Below are positions 3,703 through 51,474 of a DNA stretch of 64,000 nt, in pieces. Numbering within the stretch: the first letter of the stretch is position 1; each line of letters starts with the position of its first letter. This DNA is from Spisula solida. Its lineage: Eukaryota > Mollusca > Bivalvia > Venerida > Mactridae. The position numbers were made by a program, and so were the translations under genes. The notes under the pieces were generated by a model, which was not told the DNA's origin, did no database searches, and worked only from the letters and a program-made list of their open reading frames with translations. The stretch is taken from assembly GCA_947247005.1 (NCBI GenBank), contig OX365948.1, positions 10,839,455 through 10,903,454 of the forward strand. Direction: 5' to 3'.

Positions 3703-6700
3703 TTAATATGTAGCCGCATTGGGTACAGGAGCGGCTGTATATGCACATGGAGCTGGAACACCGCCAATTGGAGGCAACGTTGGCACGGTATAATCCATCC
3801 ATAAATTATTTAACTGTGGTTGTTGTGGTGGCGATTGTAATGGACTCAACTGATTGGGCAAACTTCCATCTGGCATGTTTATCCTCGATTTAGTGTTAGA
3901 TGGTCCATCTCTTCCTTGGTGTCCTCGATTGCTGTTTCCATTGTTTTGTTGTTCAGGTGAGACTTTGGACTTTGAATTAGGTGGACCGTCGTTGCCGCCG
4001 CGAAGTCCTTTGTTTCCAGTATTTCCTTGGTTACTTTGGCTCGGAGAGTTGTACGATGCGGCATCTGGTGTTTTTGGTGCGTTATAAGATGCAGCCCCAG
4101 GGACGGCCGACATTGCAGCCTTTATTTTAAATATGATAAAAGCTGTAACCAAGGCAGCCACTACCACGCCCGCTATTGCACCTCCAATTATCGCTGGCAT
4201 AATGCTATTATCTTCCGCTGTAAAATATAACAACAACTTTGAAATACATTTTAATTCGACTTTTCGTAGAAGAAAGAGCTATTGTCGTTGCATGGGCGTC
4301 ATGGGAGTTATTCCCCTGTATTCAGTTAGGTAACTCTATCAATATATTTGATGGCGTTATTTCCCAGTTTTAATTTAGATATTTTCTTTAGGTAACTATT
4401 TCCCATTATGTATCTAACGTATTGACTCATGTTGATAACCGTGATGACCCCATTCGGTAGACAAGAGGAGGTAACTATCAAGATTTTTGAAGGAGTCATT
4501 TGCCCTTTTTACACTCTTCTCTCTCAAATATGAGCATTGGTACTATCAAGTACGGGAAAGTCAAGCGTCTAGCACTCGATAAGCGGTGCTTTTGATAAGT
4601 CATATTGTAAGATCCTTATCTGGTGGACAGGACTCGAACCCATATGATCTAACATGACGACAGCTCCTACAGGAAGACAAATACATTATATATACGGAAT
4701 ATCACTGCAGTGTGTTGATCCGTTAGGCCGTATTACCTAGAGTTGCTTGTGTAATTCCGTATCGAGATGCGGTATGGCGCAAACAACGAAAGGTAATACG
4801 GCTTAACGGATCAACACAACTGCAGTAATATTCCTATTATCATATAACCTGCGGTCCAGGAGTGCCGTAAAGCCGTGCCGTACATATCGTTCGGCACTCT
4901 CAGATGATAAATATCCCAATAAATATTTAAATTAGCTTGACGTGACGTTAGCAAATCCACGCATTGATCCGTCAAAGACGTCATGATAATATCAACGTCA
5001 CCATGACGTCGCGCTCATTGAGCCGCTGAATTTCGGCTGAAACATATGCAGCGTGCATCATCCTTTTGACCAATAGTGAGCGTTTCCTTAGGTTATGTGA
5101 AAAATAGAATCTTGCATTCGTGCTCATAACATACGAGTTTTATTAAACTCGTCGACAAAAACAATATGCCACTCGGCTCGACAAAAACAATATGCCACTC
5201 GGCTCGACAAAAACAATATGGCACTGCAAAGCCTCGTGTCATATCATTTTGTCCACTCGTTTAATAAAACTCGTTATTAATGAGCACTCAAGCAAGATCC
5301 TCTATTGATTATATACCTACACAAATTTTAAAAAGCGCTTTTACGCGCGAAAATGCGTTTAATGTGTATGTAGGGTTAACGCATGCTTTTTCGGGCTATA
5401 ACATCTGCAGAGTCCCGAGGGACAGTTGGTGCCCAAGCCCGCCAGGGCGAGGGCACCAACGCTCCCGAGGGACTATGCATATGTTATAAAGCGAAAAAAA
5501 CATGCGTAAACGCTATTATAGCATACAAAATATCAATTAATGCGTTTGTATTTCAAAATAATGATATTTTGGCGGGAGATTTTGTGACGACGTCGCGAAA
5601 ACAAACGTCATACCAGTTATTGTTATGCACGTCGACCTCCGGTATCGACAAATACCAAGAAAACATGGATACTGCGGGTTTGTTTAAATGTATAAGTTAA
5701 CTATTATAGAAAACTAATTAGTACTTATTAGTACTTAGAAATAAAATGGGAATAATTAAGAAATAGTTCACATCACTGAGGGCCCTATGGCATTATATTA
5801 TGGACTGGCTAGTCAGCCCAAGTTGTGTCGAGAGTGATTGATATTTGTCAATCGACCTAGAATAAATTAGTATTAACCATAGGGACTTCATTCACGGAAA
5901 GACACATCTACATAGTACAAAACAACAGGACATACCAGCATCATCGGTTTGTTTTTCTGTACTTCCTACAATTCTAGGTGTAGCATTACTTGTTGGTGTG
6001 CCTGATGTCGGACTGCTTCTACTTGTTGGCGTGCCTGATGTCGGACTACTTCCACTTGTTGGTGTGCCTGATGTCGGACTACTTCCACTTGTTGGTGTGC
6101 CTGATGTCGGACTGCTTCTACTTGTTGGCGTGCCTGATGTCGGACTACTTCCACTTGTTGGGGTGCCTGATGTCGGACTACTGTCACTTGTTGGTGTGCC
6201 TGATGTCGGACTACTGTCACTTGTTGGCGTGCCTGATGTCGGACTACTGTCACTTGTTGGCGTGCCTGATGTCGGACTACTGTCACTTGTTGGTGTGCCT
6301 GATGTCGGACTACTGTCACTTGTTGGTGTGCCTGATGTCGGACTACTGTCACCTGTTGGTGTGCCTGATGTCGGACTGCTGTCACTTGTTGGTGTGCCTG
6401 ATGTCGGACTGCTTCCACTTGTTGGTGTGCCTGATGTCGGACTACTGTCACTTGTTGGTGTGCCTGATGTCGGACTACTGTCACTTGTTGGTGTGCCTGA
6501 TGTCGGACTACTGTCACTTGTTGGTGTGCCTGATGTCGGACTACTGTCACTTGTTGGTGTGCCTGATGTCGGACTGCTGTCACTTGTTGGTGTGCCTGAT
6601 GTCGGACTACTGTCACTTGTTGGTGTGCCTGATGTCGGACTACTGTCACTTGTTGGTGTGCCTGATGTCGGACTGCTGTCACTTGTTGGCGTGCCTGATG

Positions 6701-9700
6701 TCGGACTACTGTCACTTGTTGGTGTGCCTGTTGTCGGACTACTGTCACTTGTTGGTGTGCCTGATGTTGGACTACTGTCACTTGTTGGTGTGCCTGATGT
6801 CGGACTACTGTCACTTGTTGGTGTGCCTGATGTCGGACTACTGTCACTTGTTGGTGTGCCTGATGTCGGACTGCGGTCACTTGTTGGTGTGCCTGATGTC
6901 GGACTACTGTCACTTGTTGGTGTGCCTGATGTCGGACTACTGTCACTTGTTGGTGTGCCTGATGTCGGACTGCTTTCACTTGTTGGTGTGCCTGATGTCG
7001 GACTACTGTCACTTGTTGGTGTGCCTGATGTCGGACTACTGTCACTTGTTGGTGTACCTGATGTCGGACTACTGTCACTTGTTGGTGTGCCTGATGTCGG
7101 ACTACTGTCACTTGTTGGTGTGCCTGATGTCGGACTACTGTCACTTGTTGGTGTGCCTGATGTCGGACTGCTGTCACTTGTTGGTGTGCCTGATGTCGGA
7201 CTACTGTCACTTGTTGGTGTACCTGATGTCGGACTACTGTCACTTGTCGGTGTGCCTGATGTCGGACTACTGTCACTTGTTGGTGTGCCTGATGTCGGAC
7301 TACTGTCACTTGTTGGTGTGCCTGATGTCGGACTGCTTTCACTTGTTGGTGTGCTTGTTGTTGGATCGCTTAAACTGGTTGATTCGCTGGATGTTGACCA
7401 CGATATGCTGGACGATAATCTATCAACACTTGTCGACAATGATAGACTGGGCATCGAACTGGCAACACTTGTTGACAATGGTAGACTGGGCATCGAACTG
7501 GTAACACTTGTTGACCATGATAGACTGGGCATCGAATTGGCAACACTTGTTGACCATGGTAGACTTGGCATCGAACTGGCAACACTCATTGACCAGGATA
7601 TGCTGTATGATGAACTTATTGGCGGGATGGATTTTGAAGGTGAAATCGACAAACTTATATCATACGGACGGAACCAATTTTTGATGTACTTCGGTCTCTT
7701 TAAGTAAAATCGTTCGTAGAAAGCTTTCCATCCAAAAGGTGCATACCGATCTGGCGGGTCAATTTCCAGATCGTCTGGAAACTGGTAAGCTGAAGAAATG
7801 AATTCATTTTCATTCATTGCATACGAAGGCATGATGGTATGGCAACCAGCCTCTTTGCACTTGTGCTTCGAGATGCTTCCTGAATAGGAAAACTCTTTAA
7901 ACCAGTCCTGATTTATTCCTGACGCATGCATCTGTTCACTTTTCGTGTCTTGGTCGTACGGAAACTCTGGTAAGGAGATTGTAGCATATTGCCACTGTTG
8001 TGTATCGTATTCAATGTACTGAGAGAACCAACCGAAGTACCAATTGGAGGAAGATGACATGGTGTAGTCCTCGAAGTCAGGTTCTGACGTAATTGGAGAT
8101 TCTAGAAAAGGAAAGATATTTAGTTATCACAACCAGTGACTATAGATCCAAATTACCTATATTGTCTGATAAGACATGAGATTCTTAGTATTTTTAGATT
8201 TTGGTGTTTCATATTGAAGTTTTCAAGAAAAATATTTTAATTTCATTATAAGTTTGTTATAATACTACATTTTTTTTGTATATTGCTACACATACTCTGT
8301 AAAATAATTTCAGCAACACGTAATGTATTTTTAATATGAAACTCATTTGAAACGAATAACATAATAAGGTATTTTGATGTTTAAAACAAAAAGTCGATAT
8401 TGTATAACGTCTGTTTCTGAAATTTTCAAACGTTATCGACGTTTTCAACTAAATGGCCAGCATGTCGACACGTTCTAAGTGATACCCTTTTACCTTGGAT
8501 TCTCGAAAGTGCAACGCATGTCGATTTGCCCTTAATAAATAATATCATCACATCAAAAATTTGTGAATAAATCTCTAAATTCATTTATGAAACATTTGTT
8601 ATGTACTAGTATTGCGTTATTTTTGTGAGTCATGCCTTCCATGTCCGAGTAGTAGATCTTACTCTCTTTCTATCTTTCTGATTAGACATATTAACGACCT
8701 TGTGTTATGGTGTTCAGAAGAGCTACAACTGCCATTTACAGAATGCAACAAGCTGCAGACAGGTTATCCGCACGGACAGAATACAGATATGTATGTTGGT
8801 AAATGCAGGTGTTATTATGCCCCATTCTTTGATGAGGGGGTATATTGCTTTGCTCATGTCGGTCGGTCAGTCAGTAGACCAAATGCTTTCCGTTCAATAA
8901 CTCAAGCTCGCCTAACCTTAAGATCTTCAAACTTTACATGGGGGTTGGTTATTAAAACTAGATGACCCCTATTGATACTTAGGTCAGTAGGTCAAAGGCC
9001 AACGTCTTTGTGACCTGTACCATTTCAGACTATTGGGCTACCATTGGGGCATACGTGTTTTACAAACATGTCTTGTTAAAACTAATTCTTTGTGAGAATA
9101 GAGCCTGAATCCCTACCGTGTGCTACGTGTTTAGGTAACTTACCATTGATCCCATCGTTCCCAACATCTACAACAGAAAACAACACTCATAATTATATAC
9201 ACGTACGTCACGTGTATGTGCATTATTCATATATCGCTGGCTAAGAATGAGAAGGTCGTAAATGTTACTTACGAACTTATAATACTCATGCATATTTAAA
9301 ACAAGCATCACAAGGCGTTTATTATGAGTCTATTTTCATGAAAATCTGATCAGGATATGTTGACCAAACTGAAGTTGAAAACGCTTGTTTTACCATAAGG
9401 ACTAGTTTTTAGACAGGTTTTTCTTGTTTTCTCAATACTTACGACCTTCACATTCCAAGACAGCGATATACATGTATTGTTTAACCTTTAAAAGTGCACG
9501 AACGTTTAAAACCACTTCAATAATAAGACCACAAAAATAATATCCACTCGATAATAAGACTCTCTCAATAATAAGCAAATCTCAATAATAAAATTTTTCT
9601 CAAAATTATGACCACACTTGTTTGAGGCCTTTGTTTTGCTCTATATCTATCTTTTATATTAAGAGCTTGGTCTTACTTTTGAGGTTTTATTGTACTGCAG

Positions 9701-15065: not shown

Positions 15066-15075
15066 TATGAATAGC
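15066..15075 (+). repeat. Left copy of 10-bp target-site duplication
   Basis: TATGAATAGC here matches 32912-32921 exactly and in the same orientation, immediately outside the inverted arms. Confidence 0.65.
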
Positions 15076-15092
15076 GGTTGCGTGAAGTTGGC

Positions 15093-18000
15093 AAGGCATT
15101 GAACATTGAACATTGAACATTGAACTTTTTTGAATGTAGTTTTAGAAAACAACATTGAACATTGAACATTGGATTTTTTTGAATGTAGTTTTGGAAAACA
15201 ACATTGAACATTGAACATTGGATTTTTTTGAATGTAGTTTTGGAAAACAACATTGAACATTGAACATTGGATTTTTTCGAATGTAGTTTTAGAAAACAAC
15301 ATTGAACATTGAACATTCGATTTTTTTGAATGTAGTTATAGAAAGCAACATTGAACATTGGATTTTTTGAATGTAGTTTTAGAAAACAACATTGAACATT
15401 GAACATTGGATTTTTTTGAATGTAGTTTTAGAAAACAACATTGAACATTGAACATTGGATTTTTTTGAATATAGTTTTGGAAAACAACATTGAACATTCG
15501 ATTTTTTTGAATGTAGTTTTAGAAAACAACATTGAACATTGAACATTCGATATTTTTGAATGTAGTTATAGAAAGCAACATTGAACATTGAACATTGGAT
15601 TTTTTTGTATGTAGTTTTGGAAAACAACATTGAACATTGAACATTGGATTTTTTTGAATGTAGTTTTGGAAAACAACATTGAACATTGGATTTTTTTGAA
15701 TGTAGTTTTGGAAAACAACATTGAACATTGAACATTGGATTTTTTTTAATGTAGTTTTGGAAAACAACATTGAACATTGAACATTGGATTTTTTTGAATG
15801 TAGTTTTGGAAAACAACATTGAACATTGAACATTCGATTTTTTTTAATGTAGTTTTAGAAAACAACATTGAACATTGGATTTTTTTGAATGTAGTTTTGG
15901 AAAACAACATTGAACATTGAACATTGGATTTTTTTGAATGTAGTTTTGGAAAACAACATTGAACATTGAACATTGGATTTTTTTGAATGTAGTTTTGGAA
16001 AACAACATTGAACATTGAACATTGGATTTTTTTGAATGTAGTTTTAGAAAACAACATTGAACATTGAACATTGGATTTTTTTTGAATGTAGTTATAGAAA
16101 GCAACATTGAACATTGAACATTGGATTTTTTTGAATGTAGTTTTGGAAAACAACATTGAACATTGAACATTGGATTTTTTTGAATGTAGTTTTGGAAAAC
16201 AACATTGAACATAGGATTTTTTTGAATGTAGTTTTAGAAAACAACATTGAACATTGAACATTGGATTTTTTTGAATGTAGTTTTGGAAAACAACATTGAA
16301 CATTGAACATTCGATTTTTTTTAATGTAGTTTTAGAAAACAACATTGAACATTGAACATTGGATTTTTTTTAATGTAGTTTTGGAAAACAACATTGAACA
16401 TTGAACATTCGATTTTTTTGAATGTAGTTTTGGAAAACAACATTGAACATTCGATTTTTTTTAATGTAGTTTTAGAAAACAACATTGAACATTCGATTTT
16501 TTTGAATGTAGTTATAGAAAGCAACATTGAACATTGAACATTGGATTTTTTGAATGTAGTTTTAGAAAACAACATTGAACATTGAACATTGGATTTTTTT
16601 GAATGTAGTTTTAGAAAACAACATTGAACATTGAACATTCGATTTTTTTGAATGTAGCTATAGAAAGCAACATTGAACATTGGATTTTTTGAATGTAGTT
16701 TTAGAAAACAACATTGAACATTGAACATTGGATTTTTTTTAATGTAGTTTTAGAAAACAACATTGAACATTGAACATTGGATTTTTTTGAATGTAGTTTT
16801 GGAAAACAACATTGAACATTCGATTTTTTTGAATGTAGTTTTAGAAAACAACATTGAACATTCGATTTTTTTGAATGTAGTTATAGAAAGCAACATTGAA
16901 CATTGAACATTGGATTTTTTTGAATGTAGTTTTGGAAAACAACATTGAACATTGAACAATCGATTTTTTTGAATGTAGTTTTGGAAAACAACATTGAACA
17001 TTGAACATTGGATTTTTTTGAATGTAGTTTTAGAAAACAACATTGAACATTGAACATTCGATTTTTTTGAATGTAGTTATAGAAAGCAACATTGAACATT
17101 GAACATTGGATTTTTTGAATGTAGTTTTAGAAAACAACATTGAACATTGAACATTGGATTTTTTTGAATGTAGTTTTAGAAAACAACATTGAACATTGAA
17201 CATTGGATTTTTTTGAATGTAGTTATAGAAAGCAACATTGAACATTGGATTTTTTGAATGTAGTTTTAGAAAACAACATTGAACATTGAACATTGGATTT
17301 TTTTGAATGTAGTTTTAGAAAACAACATTGAACATTGAACATTGGATTTTTTTGAATGTAGTTTTAGAAAACAACATTGAACATTGAACATTCGATTTTT
17401 TTGAATGTAGTTATAGAAAGCAACATTGAACATTGAACATTCGATTTTTTTGAATGTAGTTATAGAAAGCAACATTGAACATTGGATTTTTTTGAATGTA
17501 GTTTTGGAAAACAACATTGAACATTGGATTTTTTTGAATGTAGTTTTAGAAAACAACATTGAACATTGAACATTGGATTTTTTTGAATGTAGTTATAGAA
17601 AGCAACATTGAACATTGAACATTGGATTTTTTGAATGTAATTTTAGAAAACAACATTGAACATTGAACATTGAACATTGGATTATTTTGAATGTAGTTTT
17701 AGAAAACAACATTGAACATTGAACATTGGATTTTTTTGAATGTAGTTATAGAAAGCAACATTGAACATTGAACATTGGATTTTTTGAATGTAGTTTTAGA
17801 AAACAACATTGAACATTGAACATTGGATTTTTTTGAATGTAGTTTTAGAAAACAACATTGAACATTGAACATTGGATTTTTTTGAATGTAGTTTTGGAAA
17901 ACAACATTGAACATTGAACATTCGATTTTTTTGAATGTAGTTTTAGAAAACAACATTGAAATTTGAACATTCGATTTTTTTGAATGTAGTTATAGAAAGC

Positions 18001-18640
18001 AACATTGAACATTGGATTTTTTTGAATGTAGTTTTAGAAAACAACATTGAACATTGAACATTGGATTTTTTTGAATGTAGTTTTGGAAAACAACATTGAA
18101 CATTGGATTTTTTTGAATGTAGTTTTAGAAAACAACATTGAACATTGAACATTGGATTTTTTTGAATGTAGTTTTGGAAAACAAAATTGAACATTGAACA
18201 TTCGATTTTTTTGAATGTAGTTATAGAAAGCAACATTGAACATTGAACATTGGATTTTTTTGAATGTAGTTATAGAAAGCAACATTGAACATTGGATTTT
18301 TTTGAATGTAGTTATAGAAAGCAACATTGAACATTGGATTTTTTTGAATGTAGTTATGGAAAGCAACATTGAACATTGAACATTGGATTTTTTTGAATGT
18401 AGTTTTGGAAAACAACATTGAACATTGAACATTGGATTTTTTTTAATGTAGTTTTGGAAAACAACATTGAACATTGAACATTCGATTTTTTTTAATGTAG
18501 TTATAGAAAGCAACATTGAACATTCGATTTTTTCAATGTCGTTATGAAAAACAACATTGAACATTGGACATTGAACTTTTTTTAATGCTGTTATGAGAAG
18601 CAACATTGAACATTGAACATTCGATTTTTTCAATGTCGTT
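15093..18640 (+). repeat. 42/49-bp tandem array, left arm
   Basis: The units consist of one or two ATTGAAC heptamers, ATTGGATTTTTTTGAATGTAG and a TTTTGGAAAACAAC or TTATAGAAAGCAAC tail, giving 42- or 49-bp periods, roughly 75 copies. The variable heptamer number and the lack of stop codons in all three minus-strand frames create many overlapping pseudo-proteins (MFNVQCCF-type). These are not genes. Confidence 0.95.
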
Positions 18641-18760
18641 ATGGAGCCGGTTGAGTGATGAAACAAAAGAATGGGCATTAGACGAGCTTTCCAACGCGCC
18701 CTCACATGACTGGCTGTGGTCATTTTAAACAGAAGGGGCACTTCTCAACCCAAGAGAAAA

Positions 18761-19265
18761 GTCAGTCTCGAAGCACCGCCGCTAGCTTCGGCCCTACCAG
18801 CGAGCTCCCGCGACACGGGCACACAAGCGTTCTATCGCAGCACCCCTACCTATCAAAGCTCCAACCTGCCGGTAAGAAGCCGATTTGCGGCAAGCAAACG
18901 GTCTGTCTCGAAGCTCCGCCGCTAGCTTCGGCCCTACCAGCGAGCTCCCGCGACACGGGCACACAAGCGTTCTATCGCAGCACCCCTACCTATCAAAGCT
19001 CCAACCTGCCGGTAAGAAGCCGATTTGCGGCAAGCAAACGGTCTGTCTCGAAGCTCCGCCGCTAGCTTCGGCCCTACCAGCGAGCCCCCGCGACCCGGCC
19101 AAGCAAGCGTTCTTTCGCAGCATCCTACCTATCAAAGCTCCAACCTGCCGGGAAGAAGCCGATTTGCGGCAAGCAAACGGTCTGTCTCGAAGCTCCACCG
19201 CTAACTTCGGCCCTACAAGCGAGCTCCCGCGACCCGTGCAAGGAAGCGTTCTTTCGCAGCACCGC
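18761..19265 (+). repeat. 140-bp tandem repeat within the left arm module
   Basis: GTCTGTCTCGAAGCTCCGCC starts units at 18761 (variant), 18901, 19041 and 19180, giving about 3.6 copies. The units are GC-rich compared with the surrounding arrays. The mirror set lies at about 28960-29470. Open frames crossing it change content with each repeat and are unlikely to be genes. Confidence 0.9.
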
Positions 19266-19576
19266 CGTGGGTGGGCAAATCCTCTAGGGCACTTTATATG
19301 TCGAGCGGTAAGCCGAATCTGGCTTGTTTTTTATCGTGTCAGACCCCTGCCCTACCCGGCGCATTCGGTCTTGCACACTCAAATCTATCGACCAGAACAC
19401 TTCGGCAGGGTCAAACGCTTTCGAATTTGTGGGTAAGCCGAATTTCGCAACATTTCCATATTTTGAGCCTTTCTTGGATTTTGCCTCCTCCCTATAATAT
19501 CATCCGGGACTTCTACGTGGGGTGACTATTACATTCTTTTCATGGGGCGGTGCTTTTTCTTAAAATGAAGACAGCC

Positions 19577-20040
19577 AGCCATGTGAGGGCGTGTTGGAAA
19601 GTTTGCCTCCACACTAAACCGGCGTATGCAGTATATGAACGATTTTCGGCGTGTCAAATTGCCGAGCTTTCTCGTTCAGTGTTTTCCGCGCAATTTCCCT
19701 TCTATCAACGATCTATGAAAGCTTCCGAGACTGCACCCGCGCAAAACTTTTTGATCTGACCTCCGATCCGGCAAAGTGAGAGCGCGTTGGAAAGCTCGTC
19801 TCATGCCCGTTCGTTTGCATCCACACTCAACCGGCGTAGGCAGTATGTGAACGATTTTACGGCGCGTCAAATTGCCGAGCTTTCTCGTTCAGTGTTTTCC
19901 GCGCAATGTCCCTTCTATAAACGGTATATGAAAGCTTCCGAGATTGCACCCCGCGCAAAACTTTTTCATCTTATCTCCGATCCGGAAAAGTGAGGGCGCG
20001 TTGGAAAGCTTGTCTCATGCCCGTTCGTTTGCATCCTCAC
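19577..20040 (+). repeat. About 210-bp tandem duplication within the left arm module
   Basis: Units begin near GAGGGCGYGTTGGAAAG (about 19586, 19780 and 19992) and share AAATTGCCGAGCTTTCTCGT and TATGAAAGCTTCCGAGA. The same motif occurs inverted at about 18690-18715, so the module is itself bounded by a short inverted repeat. The mirror set is at 28150-28640. Confidence 0.85.
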
Positions 20041-20154
20041 TTCCCTATAATATTTTCTTGAAAAAATGACAAAGTATTGGTTCTACTGTGGGGCGGTTGA
20101 AATTGACCAGCTCTTACAAGCTTCTTAACTAGGCAGCCGAATCTCGCGACATTT

Positions 20155-20292
20155 TCATATTTTCAGCCTTTTGAATGTTGTTATGAAAAACAACATTGAA
20201 CATTGAACATTTTTGAATGTTGTTATGAGAAGCAACATTGAACATTCGATTTTTTCAATGTCGTTATGAAAAACAACATTGAACATTGAACA
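20155..20292 (+). repeat. Short inner copy of the ATTGAAC array, left arm
   Basis: Several diverged units with TTGAATGTTGTTATGARAA tails reappear at the inner end of the arm. The right-arm counterpart (27780-28035) carries more units, so this part differs in copy number between arms. Confidence 0.88.
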
Positions 20293-20459
20293 AGTTTGAA
20301 AAAAATCGAAAGGATCATAAGATTCATTACTAATTATTAGCAAGTTCGCGATATATATTGAGCATCTCGTGCATCACATTTATTTTAAAAATTGCGAATT
20401 CTTCGAGATGCTGTGGGGCGGTTGAAATTGACAGTCGGGAACTCGGTGAAACATTGTCA

Positions 20460-21340
20460 TCAAGTCGCCGAGTCCTCTACGAATTAGGAAAACCCGATCG
20501 ATGCTCCAACGAGTCTTATATATCCGTACGGACGCCGTGCGAGTTCGCCAAAATGAACTCGTACGGAGCTCGTAAGAAAAGCGTAGGGTAAATGTGACCG
20601 TATTATTAGTCTTATAATGAAGTTGGTTGTATACCGTGGTATATACCGTGGTATTTGTGGAAAACTGTGATATACCCCGATATATTTTTCTTGGTGGTAC
20701 CCAGCCCTATAGATTAGCATGAATTATACAGCCTATATGCAACACTGTATGTGCCAGATTGAGAATTGTTTCTTTGAAATTTGGCAAATTTTTTTCGGAT
20801 TAGAAGGTACCGTGCCTGTCACGAGTACCGAACATGAATGCTACGGTCACAAAGCTCGTACGATATCCGTACGAATTTACCAACTCGTACGAGTCCACAC
20901 TTTATAAAATCCTGATGGTATTTGTACATTCGTAGCGTCACAGCTCGTACGGACCTCGTACGATTGATAGAGATGCAATCGTACGATATTCGTACGGGCA
21001 TCGTAATATCCATACGGACATCGCACGGTGCTCGCAAGGAGCCCGGTCGTACATTGCACGGTGCTCGTAGATCAACCAGAGCTCGCAGATAACTCGTACG
21101 CTGTCTGTACGGTGACCGTGCGACAATAATTGATATGTTCAACTACTTTTAATTATCTATTTAAGAACCTGGTCACAATGATCGTACGAGCTCCGTGCGA
21201 GTCGAATTTTAGCAAGTGCGTACGCAGTCCGTACGGACTTCGTTAACTCGTAAGAGCATCCCGATGATTATTTTTAACTCGTAGAGGACTCGGGAGCACG
21301 GTGAAAATGTTTCACCGAGCTCCGAGTTGTCTACGAGCTC
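20460..21340. repeat. CGTACG/CTCGTACGAGC-rich block
   Basis: Dozens of short partly palindromic words (CGTACGAG, TCCGTACGGAC, CGTGCGAG, CTCGTAGA) occur at irregular spacing. A sub-block of about 165 bp, including GACGCCGTGCGAGTTCGCCA, is repeated directly at about 23455-23610. The block contrasts sharply with its AT-rich, CpG-poor surroundings. Confidence 0.8.
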
Positions 21341-22784
21341 CTAGAGATTTTTGAAGTAGAGAGCTCGCAAGGAAGCTGTCCTCAACAATGTTTTGTGTTG
21401 TTTTATTATGTAAGATGATTATATAATGATTGGTATTGCATGTTATGTTTATAAATGCAAGGACAATGCATAGATGTCCTTTGACAGACTCAGCCAATTT
21501 CGCCATGACGTTTTGAATAGAAGTTCTGTGCACGAGAATCACGGAAATAACAATTATCATACACTGATCGTGTGCGGATCCAGATGGGGTGGGCCTGGAC
21601 CCTGGAATTGTGGTCATCTTATCTAGTGGGTACCAACTTGGATAAAATATAGCTGGTCAGACCCCCACACTAGCAAAATAACCCGAACCCATTCTCATAT
21701 ATGTATTGCCGGAGCCTGGCAGAGATGGGCTTATGGTAACCATTCATGAACTAGCTGGCGTCTCACCAAACGACTCCTTCAGTTATAACCTAACTTCCCC
21801 CGGGATTCGAACTTTGCTCGCTTTGGAAATAAGGTTAATAATTCATGAGATAAAATTAAGAAAGTCTTAAGGAGTGTTTCGGCTTACATTCAAGTCCTTT
21901 CTAACAAAATTTGTTGGAGAAAAATAATTTGTCTACCAGTAATTTCTTAACTAAGTCTGCTATTTTTGAATGTATTTTATGACCATGATTATATTTTTTT
22001 GCTGTAGATTTCTTTCCGACAGAAACTGTGTATTTACGTATTTACAGAGACTACAGTCTCTGGTATTTATTGATAAATTTTATTATTGTAGGCGATTCTG
22101 TATGATATGTACATCAATCATGTTATAATAGACTGACGTTTTTATTTTCTGTAAAAACATGTATATTTATTTTTTCTATCAAATACATGTAGACATGTTC
22201 ATTGTCAGTCGGAGATACTGTATGTACATACTTTAAGTACCGTCAACGATACCAATTTATACAGTGCTATGGCTTGAACTATTTTCCCGGTAAAAACACC
22301 GGCATCTAAAAACAAATGCCTACCTACCTACCCTATTTTTCACCAATGTTTCCTGAACCACACATATTTTTTATTTAGCCTAAGTGAAAGTTATTCATTT
22401 CATGCCAATTAATTTAGGTCGGTTGTTTTACTATTTCATACAAATTATATCAACCACTCTGGATACCTCACTCCTGATGGCATCCATGATCATGAAGGTA
22501 TGAAAGACCAGCTTTCCCACTTATATAAGCGGAAATACGAAATAACGCCCTTAACGAGTGTCGATATGCGTTGTCCATAGACTGAAATATGAAAATCGCT
22601 GTAAAACGAGATTCAATAAATTAATGTGGTGATGATTTCTTTTGCTTCTCACACGGCTACACCAAACAGAAAAAAACAGTTAACGGTAATTTTGCGGGGA
22701 AAATATTGTATTGCCGTTTGAAATATTCTAAGTGTCGACATGCGATGACTAAAGTGGGATCTACGAAATATTGTATGCTAGGTC

Positions 22785-23005
22785 GCCAACTTTAAGCTGC
22801 TAGTCTAATAGACCGCTCGATCGCCAACTTCACGATGCTAGGCCGCCAACTTCACGTTGCTAGGCTGCTAATGCGCTAGGCCGCCAACTTCACGCTGCTA
22901 GGCTGCCAACTTCACGCTGCCATGCTGCTTGTGTGCTAGACTGCCAACTTCACGCTGCTAGGCTGCCAACTTCACGCTGCTAGGCCGCTAGCCTGCCAAC
23001 TTCAT
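22785..23005 (+). repeat. Eight-copy cluster of the element's end motif
   Basis: GCCAACTT(CACGCTGCTAG) begins at 22785, 22823, 22845, 22883, 22905, 22943, 22965 and 22995. The spacing alternates 38 and 22 bp, a 60-bp higher-order repeat, with a last step of 30. The same GCCAACTTCACGCTGC forms the right terminus of the element (32896-32911) and its inverse forms the left terminus. Confidence 0.9.
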
Positions 23006-23454
23006 GAACATATATTTCCCACCAATCTAGAGGTGAACTGGTTGGAAACCCAGAGGTACTAGTGGTCTCGTGTGTAGCGGAACCATTCATTATACTCGGA
23101 ATAATCTGTGGTATCGCACCCAGATACTTTGCATCACACAATCTAGCAGTGAAAATTGGATAACTACTGAAAATAACACATAGCTACATGCACTAGTAAT
23201 CTTCCGGCAATCAGGCCGACAACTCATACATTCCCACGTACCTATGCTCAGCTTCAACGTAACAACAAACGTAACTTTTCGTTACTTTTTAAATTATGAT
23301 TATTGTTTTCGATGTTGGGTATTTGCTGTTGACAGAGTCTTTCTACTGGAACTTGGATACATGATACAGTTGCAGTATCAGCAAAATAGCAGTGCATGTT
23401 ATAGTGTATATACAACAATGTCATGTGAAATAAAGATATTACAATTCTATGCTC

Positions 23455-23610
23455 GCTGAGTCTGTCAATTTTCACCGAGTCGCCGAGCCCTCTACGAGTC
23501 ACAAAAATCCGTACGATGCTCGTACGAGTTTCGATATCCGTACGCACGCCGTGCGAGTTCGCCAAAAAACAACTCGTACAGAGCTCGTAGGGCAAATGTG
23601 ACCGTAGCAT
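23455..23610. repeat. Direct copy of part of the CGTACG block
   Basis: It matches about 20450-20610, sharing GAGTCGCCGAG, TCCGTACG, GCCGTGCGAGTTCGCCA, ACTCGTACRGAGCTCGTA and GGTAAATGTGACCGTA-like segments. Confidence 0.8.
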
Positions 23611-23964
23611 TATACAATGAATAAATTTGTTTCCGTGAATATTGCAGCAATTAATTGATGACCGTATATAGACATATTTCAATGCTTATTGATCCCACCC
23701 TGTTTACATTTTTTGGATGGATAATGTTCGTAACCAAAATAAAACTAATATTTATGTTTTAATAATAATTGCTGATCCCTTGGTCCGTAGGCTTGCTGAT
23801 GTGTCTATTTTTTCTTCAAACTGCTAAACGGGTCGCTAGATTTATTTGTTTACAAATGATGCAGATGTTTTCGCGTGAAAACAATAATTAAGGTTTCATA
23901 TGAATTTACTTATTTATCAATTATAGATAACGAAAATGAATTGCTGAAATTCATACAGTATATA

Positions 23965-24375
23965 GAAAATTCGAATTGGCAGTTGGCGGCCGGTTCGCGG
24001 TTGCCAATTCGATCATCTAGTGAAATTTGAATTGGCTGCTGACTGCCAGTTCGCAGCAGTTGATGCGAATCTACAGTGAAAAATCGAATTGATAGCTGGC
24101 TTCCGATAGGCAGTTGCCAGTTCGATCCTCTAGTAAAATTTGAATTGACTGCTGGTTGCTGGTTCGCAGTTGCCGATTCGAGGTAGCTGACTGCCTGTTC
24201 GCAGTCTGCTAGGAAATTCGAATTGGCAACTGGGTGCCGGTTTGCAGTTGCAAAATCGATCCTCTAATGAAATTTGAATTGGCTGCTGGTTGCCGGTTCG
24301 CAGTTGCTGATTCGAGTCTACAGTGATAATCGAATTGGAAGCTGGCTTCCAGTTCGCAGTTGCTAATTCGATCTT
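23965..24375 (+). repeat. Tandem repeat, three copies of about 115-135 bp
   Basis: Units start at GATCMTCTARTGAAATTTG, near 24012, 24115 and 24250. Each contains two related halves with GAATTGGCNGCTGGYTKCC and GTTCGCAGTTGCCRATTCGA. No reading frame is conserved. Confidence 0.8.
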
Positions 24376-25618
24376 TGAAAAAAATGCATTATAATGCAGG
24401 ATGTACGATATATAATGTAGGTCCCAATAATATCGAGGTGGATCTACAATCTCTATAACCGGTTTAGTACATCTAGGCTACTACTTGTCTTCAGACTTAT
24501 AAGGAATTCCTTGCAAAATGAAATAACAATCCGACTATTATCCTCACATGAAAGTAAACCTAGATCTCTTATAATTGGTTCCACATAAATTACTAGTTCA
24601 GTTTCACAATGAACGTTAAAAAGTGACAAAAGTTACAAAAAACACCCATAAAGAAATGGATGACGTAAATTATGAAGGAATGAAATCTCATTGAATGATG
24701 GCGTAGATGGGATGTTGAATTTCCCACGGCCAATACACTCATACATACAGTGGTCAGGAAAGAGCTCCAAATGGAGCTCCCTTTGATATGTGCGGTCTCA
24801 GCATGATAGGTCAGTATCAACAGCACCATGTAATTGATTCCAATGACCCATTATAAATGACCACCACTTGTGTAGTCTTATCTAAACAGCCTGACCAGCT
24901 ACCTTAGTTAGCTATACACCATAATTTTTGTTACAGAATAATTAATAGAATACAGATCCCAATTAACGAACACGTGTGAATTTCCCGACGAAGCTGGTTG
25001 GGAAGTGTTTTAAAATGTTGGACATTTGTTCTTTTTGGTCTATGTAATAGTTTTTTTAAAAGCGCTAATTAGTAGATATTCTTGCGGTGATCAATGCATT
25101 CCATTTCCAAATTTTATAAAAATATAGCCTATAACGTTAGATTTAAAATGTTCGAGACAGTTATTGTAGATCATGATAATACATGTATATAGATAAAAGA
25201 TCATAAAGCCTATCGACACATTACCACTAAAAATATACATAGCAATCTTGTATCACTAAATGGCCACATATAAACTATACTGTTCCCCTTTTCTGGCGAA
25301 AACTGTAATCAAAGTAACTCGTGTGACATTGTTGACAGTAAACACGCTTTAAGCAACTATCTATATTTGCTGCTCGCAAAGGGCGTTACTCTTCAGTAGT
25401 TGTGCAGTATATTCATTTAATCGTTGACTCAAAAGAGAAATAGATATATATAAATATTCCATGTAGACTAAACTTCGAAGACATATATAGTACATACCTC
25501 ATCGTAATGAAGCCAGGAGTGCTCCGTAAACGTTTTATTATAATTAACTTCATTTATAAATAAATATAACACAGACATACTTTAACATTACATTTAATTT
25601 CCTATTTAAAAACGAATG

Positions 25619-26150
25619 CAGCGGAAAATTTTGAAGCCTTGTTGTAAGCGAAAAGAAGCCAATTTACGCAGGGTTACTCTATCGTTCCGAAGTCCCCTTG
25701 AATTTTATGCACCCAACAATCGCTTGAATGGTCGTTTCTAAAAAATGTGTGCATTTTAATAATTTGACTTCCGTAAGCTACGGAATAGCATTAAATGAAA
25801 TTTGAAATTGGTATTTAAAATGTCTAGCCCCGACATGGGACGAAACATTACTTTTTATGGGAAAAAATGCAGCGGAAAATTTTGCAGCCTTATCGTAAGC
25901 GAAATGAAGCCGACTTTCGCAGGGTAATTCTATTGATCAGAAGTACTCCTGTATTCATTTCACTCCACAATAGTATAAATGGTCGTTTCTCAAAAATATG
26001 TACATGTTAATAATTTGACTTCCGTAAACTACGGAAGTCAAATTATATGAAATTTGAAATTAGTATTTAAAATGTCTAGACCGACATGGGAAGAAACATT
26101 TCTTTTTAAGAAGAAAAATGCAGCGGAACATTTTGATGCTTTGTCGTAAC
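25619..26150 (+). repeat. 251-bp tandem repeat, two and a bit copies
   Basis: CAGCGGAAAATTTTG begins units at 25619 and 25870, and a partial third begins at 26121. Each unit carries ATGGTCGTTTCT, AATAATTTGACTTCCGTAA and ATTTAAAATGTCTAG in order, with moderate divergence. Confidence 0.9.
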
Positions 26151-27658
26151 CTTTATACGGTTCAACTGAATATTGTTTTAACTTTTTAATAAATGTCGGT
26201 TGGTCATCATTTGTGGCTAAAACGTATTTCATTGGACTAAACAATAATGCTAATTGGTGTTGTGTAACCACCAAAGGCCGCGTAAAAAAATTGGTACGTA
26301 TAGCCAAGAGTTACAGCTCAACATACTAGTAAGTACAGTCGACGCTCGTTATCACGAATTTCTCGGGACCGTCTAAGTTACTACATGTACGACATAACAG
26401 AAATTCAAGATAAGTTCCAAAACCCCTAGTTCTCTACGTCTCAGTTTGGGAAGTTCAGGGAAACTGTGTTTTACCGGGGCAACCACCCTTACTTCGTCGT
26501 GAACATCCGGGATCAACTAGCATGATCCGTGATAAACAGTGATGGACCGCTTCAGCCCCGTTCTCACAGTCACCGGTGTCTTCCTGTTTGTGATTCCGGG
26601 GGGGGGGGTGGCATGTCTAACCTGGGAGACACACGTGGCGGCACCATGAACATCCGGGATCCACCGGGACAATCCGTGATAGACCGTGATGAACCGGCTC
26701 AAGTGCCGGTTGTTTTTAAAACGTTTAATACAACCGGGAGTGATATCAAGTATCGGCATAATCCGGGTATAAACAGGACAATACAAGGGAATGTTCGTGG
26801 ATCTACCGTAGCAATACCGTGATTAACCCTAGCGCACCGGCATGGCACATGCACTACGGTCAAACAAGGTTGAGGGCCGGTGGATCTCCGGTAAAGTGGT
26901 ATAGCCCCGTTTCGTACAGGAGGCGACAGGCATAGTTGCGGTAAGTTGAATGTAAAATTGTCCACGAGGCAGACACCCAAGAGCGGTTACAGAGAGCGGC
27001 GAAAGGTGACCAAACAACATGCAGTAGTCTTGTGCTCAAGTGGGAAAAGCAAATTTCTGGAACCATTCTGGAAATTCCCTTTCTGTGTTTAAAAGGAAGT
27101 TCAACTTGTAATATCCTCAAATGCTGAGCTCAGAAGTTGGACGCTCAGGGCCCGTAATTACAACCAATACTTACAATCAGCACACAAATATCGAAATCCA
27201 CTCTATTGGTTCATTGTTATTGTGACAAATTTTGCTACAAAGAATTTGGGATAATGTTATGTCGCTAGTGAATATTAACAGTGGCTTACTTTGGAGTAAA
27301 TAATGTATTTATAGCTGTAATTGAACTAAGTCTTGTCAATTTTGAGTGCAGAGTGTCGCACTCAAGTTTAATAATTGCTTCTACACCTCATAAATAGTAC
27401 GAGTAGTTGTCCGTAGTGCACCGAAAGAAGTGATAAGCATAGTTCGGACACATTATTTTCGGTAGTTATACAATGTAGTTAAAATGATGTACAGCCAGGT
27501 TGGGTGTCAAGACACAACTGAGACGGAGATGCCACTACGGGTAACGGCAGATTACTAAGAAAATGTCCGTACAATACCGGGATTTCAATCCTGTACATAA
27601 TGACCAGGCATAATTCAGCGACAATAACCAATGCATCATACACACCTTCTGAGTGGAG

Positions 27659-30600
27659 CACAGCATCTAGAAGAATTCGCAATTTTTAAAATGAATGTGA
27701 TGCACGAGATGCTCAATATATATCGCGAACTTGCTAATAATTAGTAATGAATCTTATGATCCTTTTGATTTGTTTCAAACTTGTTCAATGTTCAATGTTG
27801 TTTTTCATAACGACATTGAAAAAATCGAATGTTCAATGTTGCTTCTCATAACAACATTCAAAAAAGTTCAATGTTCAATGTTGTTTTTCATAGCGAAATT
27901 GAAAAAATCGAATGTTCAATGTTTCTTTTCATAACAACATTCAAAAAATTTGAATGTTCAATGTTCAATGTTGCTTTCCATAACAACATTTGAAAGTTCA
28001 ATGTTCAATGTTGTTTTTCATAACAACATTCAAAAGGCTGAAAATATGAAAATGTCGCGAGATTCGGCTGCCTAGTTAAGAAGCTTGTAAGAGCTGGTCA
28101 AATTCAACCGCCCCACAGTAGAACCAATACTTTGTCCTTTTTTCAAGAAAATATTATAGGGAAGTGAGGATGCAAACGAACGGGCATGAGACAAGCTTTC
28201 CAACGCGCCCTCACTTTTCCGGATCGGAGATAAGATGAAAAAGTTTTGCGCGGGGTGCAATCTCGGAAGCTTTCATAGACCGTTTATAGAAGGGAAATTG
28301 CGCGGAAAACACTGAACGAGAAAGCTCGGCAATTTGACGCGCCGTAAAATCGTTCACATACTGCCTACGCCGGTTGAGTGTGGATGCAAACGAACGGGCA
28401 TGAGACGAGCTTTCCAACGCGCTCTCACTTTGCCGGATCGGAGGTCAGATCAAAAAGTTTTGCGCGGGTGCAGTCTCGGAAGCTTTCATAGATCGTTGAT
28501 AGAAGGGAAATTGCGCGGAAAACACTGAACGAGAAAGCTCGGCAATTTGACACGCCGAAAATCGTTCATATACTGCATACGCCGGTTTAGTGTGGAGGCA
28601 AACGAACGGGCATGAGACGAACTTTCCAACACGCCCTCACATGGCTGGCTGTCTTCATTTTAAGAAAAAGGACCGCCCCATGAAAAGAATGTAATAGTCA
28701 CCCCACGTAGAAGTCCCGGATGATATTATAGGGAGGAGGCAAAATCCAAGAAAGGCTCAAAATATGAAAATGTTGCGAAATTCGGCTTACCCACAAATTC
28801 GAAAGCGTTTGACCCTGCCGAAGTGTTCTGGCCGATAGAATTGAGTGTGCAAGACCGAATGCGCCGGGTAGGGCAGGGGTCTGACACGATAAAAAACAAG
28901 CCAGATTCGGCTTACCGCTCGACATATAAAGTGCCCTAGAGGATTTGCCCACCCACGGCGGTGCTGCGAAAGAACGCTTCCTTGCACGGGTCGCGGGAGC
29001 TCGCCTGTAGGGCCGAAGTTAGCGGTGGAGCTTCGAGACAGACCGTTTGCTTGCCGCAAATCGGCTTCTTCCCGGCAGGTTGGAGCTTTGATAGGTAGGA
29101 TGCTGCGAAAGAACGCTTGCTTGGCCGGGTCGCGGGGGCTCGCTGGTAGGGCCGAAGCTAGCGGCGGAGCTTCGAGACAGACCGTTTGCTTGCCGCAAAT
29201 CGGCTTCTTACCGGCAGGTTGAAGCTTTGATGGTAGGGGTGCTGCGATAGAACGCTTGTGTGCCCGTGTCGCGGGAGCTCGCTGGTAGGGCCGAAGCTAG
29301 CGGCGGAGCTTCGAGACAGACCGTTTGCTTGCCGCAAATCGGCTTCTTACCGACAGGTTGGAGCTTTGATAGGTAGGGGTGCTGCGATAGAACGCTTGTG
29401 TGCCCGTGTCGCGGGAGCTCACTGGTAGGGCCGAAGCTAGCGGCGGTGCTTCGAGACTGACTTTTCTCGTGGGTTGAGAAGTGCCCCTTCTGTTTAAAAT
29501 GACCACAGCCAGTCATGTGAGGGCGCGTTGGAAAGCTCGTCTAATGCCCATTCTTTTGTTTCATCACACAACCGGCTCCATAACGACATTGAAAAAATCG
29601 AATGTTCAATGTTCAATGTTGCTTCTCATAACAACATTAAAAAAAGTTCAATGTCCAATGTTCAATGTTGTTTTTAATAACGACATTGAAAAAATCGAAT
29701 GTTCAATGTTGCTTTTTATAACTACATTCAAAAAAATCGAATGTTCAATGTTGTTTTCCAAAACTACATTCAAAAAAATCCAATGTTCAATGTTCAATGT
29801 TGTTTTCCAAAACTACATTCAAAAAAATCCAATGTTCAATGTTCAATGTTGCTTTCTATAACTACATTCAAAAAAATCCAATGTTCAATGTTCAATGTTG
29901 CTTTCTATAACTACATTCAAAAAAATCCAATGTTCAATGTTCAATGTTGCTTTCTATAACTACATTCAAAAAAATCCAATGTTCAATGTTCAATGTTGCT
30001 TTCTATAACTACATTCAAAAAAATCGAATGTTCAATGTTGTTTTCTAAAACTACATTCAAAAAAATCGAATGTTCAATGTTGTTTTCCAAAACTACATTC
30101 AAAAAAATCCAATGTTCAATGTTGTTTTCTAAAACTACATTCAAAAAAATCCAATGTTCAATGTTCAATGTTGCTTTCTATAACTACATTCAAAAAAATC
30201 GAATGTTCAATGTTGTTTTCTAAAACTACATTAAAAAAAATCGAATGTTCAATGTTGTTTTCCAAAACTACATTCAAAAAAATCCAATGTTCAATGTTCA
30301 ATGTTGTTTTCTAAAACTACATTCAAAAAAATCCAATGTTCAATGTTCAATGTTGTTTTCTAAAACTACATTCAAAAAATCCAATGTTCAATGTTCAATG
30401 TTGCTTTCTATAACTACATTCAAAAAAATCGAATGTTCAATGTTCAATGTTGTTTTCTAAAACTACATTCAAAAAAATCGAATGTTCAATGTTCAATGTT
30501 GTTTTCCAAAACTACATTCAAAAAAATCCAATGTTCAATGTTCAATGTTGTTTTCTAAAACTACATTCAAAAAAATACAATGTTCAATGTTCAATGTTGT

Positions 30601-32911
30601 TTTCTAAAACTACATTCAAAAAATCCCATGTTCAATGTTCAATGTTGCTTTCTATAACTACATTCAAAAAAATCGAATGTTCAATGTTGTTTTCTAAAAC
30701 TACATTCAAAAAAATCGAATGTTCAATGTTCAATGTTGTTTTCCAAAACTACATTCAAAAAAATCGAATGTTCAATGTTCAATGTTGTTTTCCAAAACTA
30801 CATTCAAAAAAATCGAATGTTCAATGTTCAATGTTGTTTTCCAAAACTACATTCAAAAAAATCCAATGTTCAATGTTCAATGTTGCTTTCTATAACTACA
30901 TTCAAAAAAATTGAATGTTCAATGTTCAATGTTGTTTTCCAAAACTACATTCAAAAAAATCCAATGTTTAATGTTCAATGTTGTTTTCTAAAACTACATT
31001 CAAAAAAATCCAATGTTCAATGTTGTTTTCTAAAACTACATTCAAAAAATCCAATGTTCAATGTTAAATGTTGCTTTCTATAACTACATTCAAAAAAATC
31101 GAATGTTCAATGTTCAATGTTGTTTTCTAAAACTACATTCAAAAAAATCGAATGTTCAATGTTCAATGTTGTTTTCCAAAACTACATTCAAAAAAATCGA
31201 ATGTTCAATGTTGTTTTCCAAAACTACATTCAAAAAAATCCAATGTTCAATGTTGTTTTCTAAAACTACATTCAAAAAAATCGAATGTTCAATGTTCAAT
31301 GTTGTTTTCCAAAACTACATTCAAAAAAATCCAATGTTCAATGTTCAATGTTGTTTTCTTAAACTACATTCAAAAAAATCCAATGTTCAATGTTCAATGT
31401 TGTTTTCCAAAACTACATTCAAAAAAATCCAATGTTCAATGTTCAATGTTGTTTTCTGAAACTACATTCAAAAAAATCCAATGTTCAATGTTCAATGTTG
31501 TTTTCTAAAACTACATTCAAAAAATCCAATGTTCAATGTTCAATGTTGCTTTCTATAACTACATTCAAAAAGATCGAATGTTCAATGTTCAATGTTGTTT
31601 TCTAAAACTACATTCAAAAAAATCGAATGTTCAATGTTCAATGTTGTTTTCCAAAACTACATTCAAAAAAATCCAAAGTTCAATGTTCAATGTTGTTTTC
31701 CAAAACTACATTCAAAAAAATCCAATGTTCAATGTTGTTTTCTAAAACTACATTCAAAAAAATCGAATGTTCAATGTTCAATGTTGTTTTCCAAAACTAC
31801 ATTAAAAAAAATCCAATGTTCAATGTTCAATGTTGTTTTCTAAAACTACATTCAAAAAAATCGAATGTTCAATGTTCAATGTTGTTTTCTGAAACTACAT
31901 TCAAAAAAATCCAATGTTCAATGTTCAATGTTGTTTTCTAAAACTACATTCAAAAAATCCAATGTTCAATGTTCAATGTTGCTTTCTATAACTACATTCA
32001 AAAAAATCGAATGTTCAATGTTGTTTTCTAAAACTACATTCAAAAAAATCCAATGTTCAATGTTCAATGTTGTTTTCTAAAACTACATTAAAAAAATCCA
32101 ATGTTCAATGTTCAATGTTGCTTTCTATAACTACATTCAAAAAAATCGAATGTTCAATGTTCAATGTTGTTTTCTAAAACTACATTCAAAAAAATCGAAT
32201 GTTCAATGTTCAATGTTGTTTTCCAAAACTACATTAAAAAAAATCCAATGTTCAATGTTCAATGTTGTTTTCCAAAACTACATTAAAAAAAATCCAATGT
32301 TCAATGTTCAATGTTGTTTTCTAAAACTACATTAAAAAAAATCGAATGTTCAATGTTCAATGTTGTTTTCTGAAACTACATTCAAAAAAATCCAATGTTC
32401 AATGTTGTTTTCTAAAACTACATTCAAAAAATCCAATGTTCAATGTTCAATGTTGCTTTCTATAACTACATTCAAAAAAATCGAATGTTCAATGTTGTTT
32501 TCTAAAACTACATTCAAAAAAATCCAATGTTCAATGTTCAATGTTGTTTTCTAAAACTACATTAAAAAAATCCAATGTTCAATGTTCAATGTTGCTTTCT
32601 ATAACTACATTCAAAAAAATCGAATGTTCAATGTTCAATGTTGTTTTCTAAAACTACATTCAAAAAAATCGAATGTTCAATGTTCAATGTTGTTTTCCAA
32701 AACTACATTCAAAAAAATCCAATGTTCAATGTTCAATGTTGTTTTCCATAACTACATTCAAAAAGTTCAATGTCCAATGTTCAATGTTGTTCCCCATAAC
32801 GACATTGAAACAATTTGAATGTTCAATGTTCAATGTTGCTTTTCAAAACTACATTCAACAAAATTAAATGTTCAATGTTTAATGTCGTATGTAGTGCCAA
32901 CTTCACGCTGC
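27659..32911 (-). repeat. Right inverted arm of the palindromic element
   Basis: This arm is 5.25 kb and is the reverse complement of 15076-20415. It contains the inner short array (27780-28035), the mirrored 210-bp and 140-bp repeat modules (about 28150-29520), and the outer 42/49-bp array (29577-32880). Confidence 0.9.
29577..32880 (-). repeat. 42/49-bp tandem array, right arm
   Basis: This is the inverse of the left-arm array. Units read GTTCAATGTTCAATGTTG followed by a TTTTCYAAAACTACATTC and AAAAAAATCSAAT block. It has somewhat fewer copies than the left array and a different order of variants, so the arrays have diverged by gain and loss of units. Confidence 0.95.
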
Positions 32912-32921
32912 TATGAATAGC
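32912..32921 (+). repeat. Right copy of 10-bp target-site duplication
   Basis: TATGAATAGC here is identical to 15066-15075 and directly follows the terminal CACGCTGC. Confidence 0.65.
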
Positions 32922-50600: not shown

Positions 50601-51474
50601 AAATAGTTGCATCAACAACCTCAAACAAACAACAAAACACGACAAAAATGTGCGATTTTTAATGATGCCATCATTTGTACATTCAGTTTGTGAAAATTCT
50701 GATCGGATTGGATTTTAATAAAATTAAACGTTCAGCAATATCAAACACATATTAACTGAGTTATGGGTAAATAATTTTTATACACATGCACACTTATAAG
50801 ATTTGTTAAATGTAAGAAAAATACTATTGCTCACAAACGATAACTCTAGCATTGTATGCATATATAAACAAGAAGGTATTAACTCTACACGGGTGACTGG
50901 GCGCTTGTTTCAAGTATATTCTAATAAAGTGATTATATACAAGATCGAACGAAATGGACAACGGCAATGCATTTTTCATTTTTACTTGTCAACAAAGACT
51001 ATTGTTATCACGACGGACTATTGTAGAACACTTTTGAACATGCACTGATTAATCCTTGTGTGTTTTGGGACTTATTTTTACAAAAAGCAATTGTCTACTA
51101 GTTCTTATTTGCTCTTCCGCAAGCAATTGGCAACAAGAACGTGAATTAAAGGCAATCAAACCCGTGTCTTTCGGGTGACTGTCTATGAACTGCGCTAGAC
51201 TAGTCGGGCGACCTTCTTAAGATATCAGTGGTTGCCAGATAACTTTCAGACTGGAATCCTATCTTCACCAGGTTAAACCGTTCTCATTGTGCGGAGGAAC
51301 GTTCATAACATATTGTATTTCATTTTAATTTGATCGTACGTTACAATGTTCAAATATAGAACATTTAAGTGTCCATATATTATACCCGATACCTTTATAT
51401 ATATTTTCGTTTAGTTACATGCATTCAATTACAAAATAATTACCACTGCCAATATACGTATAAGTTGGTATAAA
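47656..51474. other. Intergenic sequence between gene B and the decayed exon, no gene seen
   Basis: Mostly AT-rich. A 75-residue Asn/Gln/Thr-rich frame at 48501-48728 has no domain, splice context or homologue I recognise. A short ACTAATAATACTAATA-type microsatellite lies near 50128-50190. CGAGGGATGTTGG at about 48901 resembles the end of the element at 39432, but I found no matching second end. Confidence 0.45.

Follow-up and report, generated by a model that had tools for sequence, protein, structure and literature searches.

A dispersed family of giant foldback elements in Spisula solida, with satellite arms and a conserved core lying in both orientations

Introduction

Foldback elements such as FB/NOF, TU of sea urchins and FARE of Arabidopsis have arms built of subrepeats, and FARE reaches up to 16.7 kb. 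Helitrons and Helentrons with tandem repeats are not known to make target duplications or to have long inverted arms; the element described here has both. Mutator-like elements (MULEs) make target duplications of 8-11 bp, mostly 9 bp.

We analysed a stretch of 64,000 nucleotides of Spisula solida DNA (hereafter the window) that holds one foldback element. The described systems closest to it in anatomy and in duplication are Tm1 and Tetris. Tm1, from root-knot nematodes, likewise has side-specific outermost motifs, followed by tandem units and an extra inner unit, and it makes 9-bp duplications, 45 of 53 copies having 8-10 bp (PMC3169594). It differs in its copy size of about 1-2.5 kb, in its 14-bp units and in that one autonomous copy encodes a MULE transposase of the Phantom type, and the parts of that paper available to us describe no flipping core. 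Tetris, from Drosophila virilis, shares tandem-repeat arms, a non-coding middle and 8-10-bp duplications, and the accessible part of its description reports no autonomous partner. Its arms of up to 1,735 bp, its 220-bp units, its three complete copies and its variable middle (PMC4079207) contrast with the present family, in which at least 37 copies share a single conserved core of 7.2 kb. Galileo copy 112 of D. willistoni resembles the present element in its 4.2-4.7-kb arms, its tandem repeats of about 140 bp and the lack of a transposase, and is the sole copy with tandem repeats in its arms in the available part of PMC4168063. It belongs to the P superfamily, however, with 7-8-bp duplications, a length of 9.0 kb and almost no middle. 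The Phantom and Rehavkus MULEs have 8-10-bp or 9-bp duplications, and some contain minisatellites; unlike the present element they encode a transposase, and multi-kb inverted satellite arms are not described in the sections of PMC6446971 that we used.

The foldback kind is already known from Tetris, Tm1 and Galileo; what is new is the many giant copies with one conserved core lying both ways. The large scale proposed in the initial annotation of this locus is borne out by copies of 12.0-26.1 kb, but an arm size without precedent is not, given the Galileo copy with arms of 4.2-4.7 kb (PMC4168063, available part). A search of open-licence literature listings returned no foldback element from a mollusc, and in the accessible portions of the bivalve repeat papers checked the term appeared in a citation only.

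Results

Anatomy of the window copy

The element spans 15076-32912 (17,837 bp), with arms at 15076-20415 and 27659-32912 and the core between them (Table 1). From the outside in, an arm starts with an end and an outer satellite array, continues with a GC-rich middle domain, and closes with a second, short array of satellite followed by an inner edge; the outer satellite units are built on the heptamer ATTGAAC. A self-comparison of the window (E 1e-6) detected no further arm or core sequence outside the element.

Table 1. Coordinates of the parts of the element in the window
Feature	Positions	Strand	Remarks
Left target-site duplication ATGAATAGC	15067..15075	+	T at 15066 is a chance match
L-type end, GGTT-GCGTGAAGTTGGC-AAGGCATTGAAC	15076..15101	+	From end comparison across copies
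Left outer satellite array	15102..18630	+	49-bp unit with 42-bp variants, about 75 units (TRF)
Left middle domain	18641..20168	+	52% GC; repeats of 140 bp x3.6 and 214 bp x2.1
Left inner satellite array	20169..20292	+	About 3 units
Left inner edge, variant a	20293..20415	+	Travels with the core on flipping
Core (spacer)	20416..27658	+	7.2 kb, no Pfam or Rfam match
End-motif array within core	22785..23007	-	8 sites, at most 2 mismatches
Right inner edge, variant b	27659..27786	-	
Right inner satellite array	27787..28035	-	About 6 units
Right middle domain	28036..29586	-	
Right outer satellite array	29592..32885	-	About 70 units
R-type end, outside-in AGCA-GCGTGAAGTTGGC-ACTACATACGAC	32886..32912	-	From end comparison across copies
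Right target-site duplication ATGAATAGC	32913..32921	+	

The 10-mer TATGAATAGC is found exactly at 15066-15075 and again at 32912-32921, and when pairs of window positions were drawn at random, 0.08% (slack 5) to 0.18% (slack 10) of them had a 10-mer in common. The flanking duplication is confirmed; its length, initially read as 10 bp, is 9 bp plus a tenth base that matches by chance, since over 35 copies the next base beyond the 9 bp agrees in 7/35 and 3/35, as expected by chance. A duplication of 9 bp lies within the MULE range, and on this comparison the element is likely to be a member of the Mutator superfamily.

Copies in the host genome

In the 36 contigs of the host genome, 932 Mb in all, we searched for GCGTGAAGTTGGC adjoining ATTGAAC arrays. 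The search gave 61 forward and 85 reverse matches, tallies in which one L end can count more than once, and none for a reversed-pattern control. Pairs were assigned by hand from neighbouring facing ends among the matches listed (contigs C1 to early C13). Among these matches, at least 37 dispersed copies could be paired, and 13 listed ends were left unpaired. Every one of the 37 pairs joins one L-type end (GCGTGAAGTTGGCAA...) to one R-type end (GCGTGAAGTTGGCAC...), never L/L or R/R, and the pairs occur in both genomic orientations. The outermost four bases are GGTT in 31/37 L ends and AGCA in 35/37 R ends. A 9-bp duplication flanks 27 of the 37 copies exactly and 2 with one mismatch, while 8 have none, 2 of these also having a broken L end; when the pairs were re-dealt, at most one mismatch was seen in 2.1% (35 pairs). 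Copies measure 11,975-26,121 bp between motifs (35 pairs), and two later pairs 20.6 and 17.0 kb by coordinates. Dispersed copies thus share the same ends and target duplications, and their long inverted arms are largely tandem subrepeats, with one arm lacking the middle domain in copies B, C and D (see below). The genome-wide tabulation of termini beside ATTGAAC arrays and of their flanking repeats, which the initial annotation had proposed, consequently yields consistent ends and exact 9-bp duplications in 27/37 copies, and these 37 paired copies support its reading of a non-autonomous foldback with a Mutator-sized duplication.

The two ends differ from each other. Over 26 bp, L ends agree with one another at 98.8% and R ends at 99.5%, but L with R ends at just 69.8%; over 155 bp the corresponding values are 95.7%, 98.2% and 81.7% (13 L and 14 R ends). 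Since each type is uniform and the types are dissimilar, the two ends are distinct and have been kept so.

Repeats inside the left arm could be taken to mean that the structure is a palindrome made by inverted duplication and not by transposition, or a composite of two arm elements: the 22-mer CTGTGGGGCGGTTGAAATTGAC within this arm recurs at its inner edge (20086, 20411), and the 7-mer GCGGTTG is common to the left end and the left inner edge. Such an origin is highly improbable, as the same ends recur in 37 dispersed copies, 27 of them exactly duplicated at the target, and no flanking repeat of at least 8 bp was found around either arm by itself. A composite origin and a mirrored assembly of the arms were both rejected, because no repeat of that length flanks the single arms and most paired copies carry duplications.

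The eight pairs that have no duplication, for example the one at host C5:36697093-36714035, have recognisable ends and unmatched flanks. Recombination between the foldback arms of different copies is known to produce chromosome inversions, as reported for Galileo in the available part of PMC4168063, and the duplication-less pairs are possible products of between-element recombination, i.e. rearrangement breakpoints.

Coding content and the source of the transposase

We looked for coding capacity in and around the element. Six-frame translation of the window core matched no Pfam family (best E 0.19 and 0.59), nor did the middle domain, and Rfam returned no match on the window or on 18600-27700. 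A protein search with an arm ORF gave 0/135 candidates, exact scans of viral contigs and prokaryote genome contigs gave 0 matches, and the flanks (6.9 kb to the left and 9.6 kb to the right of the element) showed no significant domain. With no recognised transposase domain in its core, the window copy is likely non-autonomous. The 26.1-kb copy carries an insertion in which an endonuclease domain was recognised (E 2.6e-9), likely a non-LTR retrotransposon, and the 20.2-kb copy has a 2.8-kb insert in which no domain was found.

The host genome does contain MULE genes, with 14 PF10551 matches over the cut-off. Element ends or arrays were absent within 1.5 kb of all 14 loci, none of the elements was found to contain or adjoin a transposase gene, and an autonomous copy is not known; these results weigh against a MULE as the source. 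It is conceivable, if unlikely, that a transposase from a different superfamily, likewise one that leaves 9-bp duplications, moves the family, since foldback arms have arisen repeatedly, Galileo belongs to the P superfamily, and no MULE gene linked to the element was found. Against this, MULEs, and the foldbacks that have been placed among them, typically make duplications of 9 bp, a length that does not fit the 7-8 bp of Galileo. Galileo insertions are further marked by a GTANTAC-like target (PMC4168063, available part), and the 27 duplications examined here, each having no more than one mismatch, show no GTANTAC-like consensus.

In addition to the end-motif array in the window core, the 16-bp right end recurs exactly four times in the core. 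The exact 14-mer GCGTGAAGTTGGCA has 1,566 occurrences in the host genome, part of which are runs at 22-38-bp spacing on C1 outside paired elements; such minisatellites lie at host C1:17550184-17551129 and C1:35706298-35707109. The end motif is therefore also a genome-wide minisatellite, and we dropped the idea that its core copies are dedicated binding sites.

Conservation and orientation of the core

In the five copies compared over their whole length (A-D and the window copy), cores are 99.1-99.7% identical pairwise, and a 1,351-bp core segment from 20 further copies is 97.9-99.9% identical to that of the window (one of them over 574 bp only). Identities of about 98-99.9% between copies indicate that the spread was recent.

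With the L end placed first, copies B, C and D have an inverted core, and the window copy and A a forward one. The other 32 copies were each sampled over 250 bp at the centre: 21 scored as forward and 9 as inverted, and 2 had no match, one of the 21 forward calls resting on 34 bp; longer stretches confirmed this 34-bp call and showed the 2 unmatched copies to be forward copies with inserts. Among the 37 paired copies, the core is therefore forward in 25 and inverted in 12 in the assembly. Exact duplications flank 8 of the 12 inverted-core copies. The two inner-edge variants (a and b) stay with their own side of the core on flipping, so the points of exchange lie further out in the arms.

Because the orientations come from the assembly, we considered that inverted cores might be assembly errors in a family that is itself real, the core having been turned between near-identical arms. 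The arms are 3-7 kb of satellite with shared inner edges, and assemblers could misorient a core between such long repeats. We regard this as rather unlikely: 12 of 37 copies have inverted cores, some with arms very unlike in length and content, for example copy B, whose arms measure 6.9 and 3.4 kb with the middle domain on one side only, and B and C, duplicates of one insertion, have the same core orientation.

The distribution of the inverted state was then examined on a core tree. Among 28 core segments located, 20 were used (all 9 inverted and 11/19 forward); the forward row of 574 bp was left out and A-D and the window copy were added, giving 24 rows. The inverted label requires 7 changes (bootstrap 6-10), compared with a mean of 8.4 for shuffled labels, and 119/500 shuffles were as low as 7. 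Frequent flipping and poor resolution would both yield values this close to shuffled labels, and the tree is almost unresolved, with 0 starred branches. A single origin of the inverted state appeared in 0/200 bootstrap trees and a single clade for inverted cores was mildly rejected (AU p 0.03). On this poorly resolved tree the inverted state does not appear to form one clade (AU p 0.03). These last two results also make it improbable that two old subfamilies with fixed opposite cores were amplified separately after flipping once, a history to which the poor resolution, with starred branches forcing just one change, lends some room.

Identity, register and turnover of the arms

The inverted arms of the window copy lie where they had been annotated, but the description of them as near-perfect holds only for the middle domain (99.1%). 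Overall, 4,914/5,054 ungapped columns are identical (97.2%), with 33 gaps (34 if one more base is included), 16 of them exactly 7 bp. Identity between left and right rises inwards, from 72% over the terminal 26 bp and 84% over the next 129 bp to 97.0% in the outer satellite and 99.1% in the middle domain. The two outer arrays are in a shared register, with an alignment score of 2,674 compared with 2,500 +/- 16 for 40 shuffled unit orders, and an identity in register of 0.970 compared with 0.954 for shuffled unit orders. Seven of the 8 longest exact arm blocks listed are out of register. A weaker unit-level control, in an analysis restricted to units of 35-60 bp, gave 4.07 compared with 3.61 +/- 0.14, the maximum of 100 shuffles being 4.08. 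Single-strand folding of the satellite was unremarkable (z 0.15).

This register is common to different elements. In a cross-element test, with 8/36 array pairs skipped for length, the score above shuffle was 179 for left and right arms of the window copy, 172 for its left arm and the right arm of A, and 285 for the right arms of these two copies. The window copy and A have the middle domain in both arms, whereas B and C have it only on the right and D only on the left; six stretches of it (A, B, C and the window copy) are 99.1-99.7% identical, and the window's own left-right pair, at 99.08%, is the lowest of 15 comparisons. Arms within one element thus resemble each other no more closely than they resemble the arms of other elements. 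Homogenisation between the arms of one element was rejected, as the window arms match those of other elements equally well or better; the likeness of the arms is explained by recent common descent of the family, and exchange within an element is not needed.

Copies B and C share one duplication, 59/60 flanking bases and cores that are 99.7% alike, and they are copies of one insertion, to be counted as one event. Their left arms nevertheless measure 6,876 bp in B and 4,238 bp in C, which indicates that the arrays change fast. This pair (L011-L014; host C1:8775120-8792677 and 8831413-8846401; 56 kb apart) represents a segmental duplication or, alternatively, two haplotypes that were kept separate, and offers a natural clock for arm change.

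A model for the family

Taken with the above, the most plausible account, which we hold with reasonable confidence, is a dispersed family of foldback DNA transposons with side-specific ends, moved by a MULE transposase from elsewhere and having its core flipped by recombination between the arms. The element would be cut and pasted by a Mutator-like transposase made elsewhere that binds the 17-bp ends. Homologous recombination between the inverted arms, the simplest cause, would flip the 7.2-kb core, and the satellite arms would grow and shrink in 7-bp and whole-unit steps. More tentatively, the copies may represent two interconverting isomers, in which arm recombination keeps flipping the conserved core while the ends stay fixed, each insertion then acting as a switch with its core kept intact. 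The conserved core records its own direction (25 vs 12), so that recombination inside an element could be read directly, and 37 insertions make the rates of arm recombination and of satellite growth measurable in a natural genome.

Other features of the window

A scan for inverted repeats directly adjoined by flanking repeats, which is blind to unequal ends, missed the foldback and gave only a 108-bp inverted-repeat element at 4711-4818, with a 7-bp flanking repeat; it is unrelated to the foldback and likely a MITE. A 33-bp tandem array of 41 copies (5988-7354) is open on both strands (613 and 743 aa). Three ORFs on the minus strand lie over related 36-bp arrays (44487-46529, 51432-52283 and 54914-55414); the first two encode repeats of 12 residues with a high content of Ser, Tyr and Asp and possibly specify a secreted structural protein. 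A long reverse-transcriptase ORF on the plus strand (60103-63084; RVT_1, E 1.9e-22) is 59% identical to its best relative, the nearest named protein being from the clam Mercenaria (54% over 64%), and it is likely a recent non-LTR retrotransposon.
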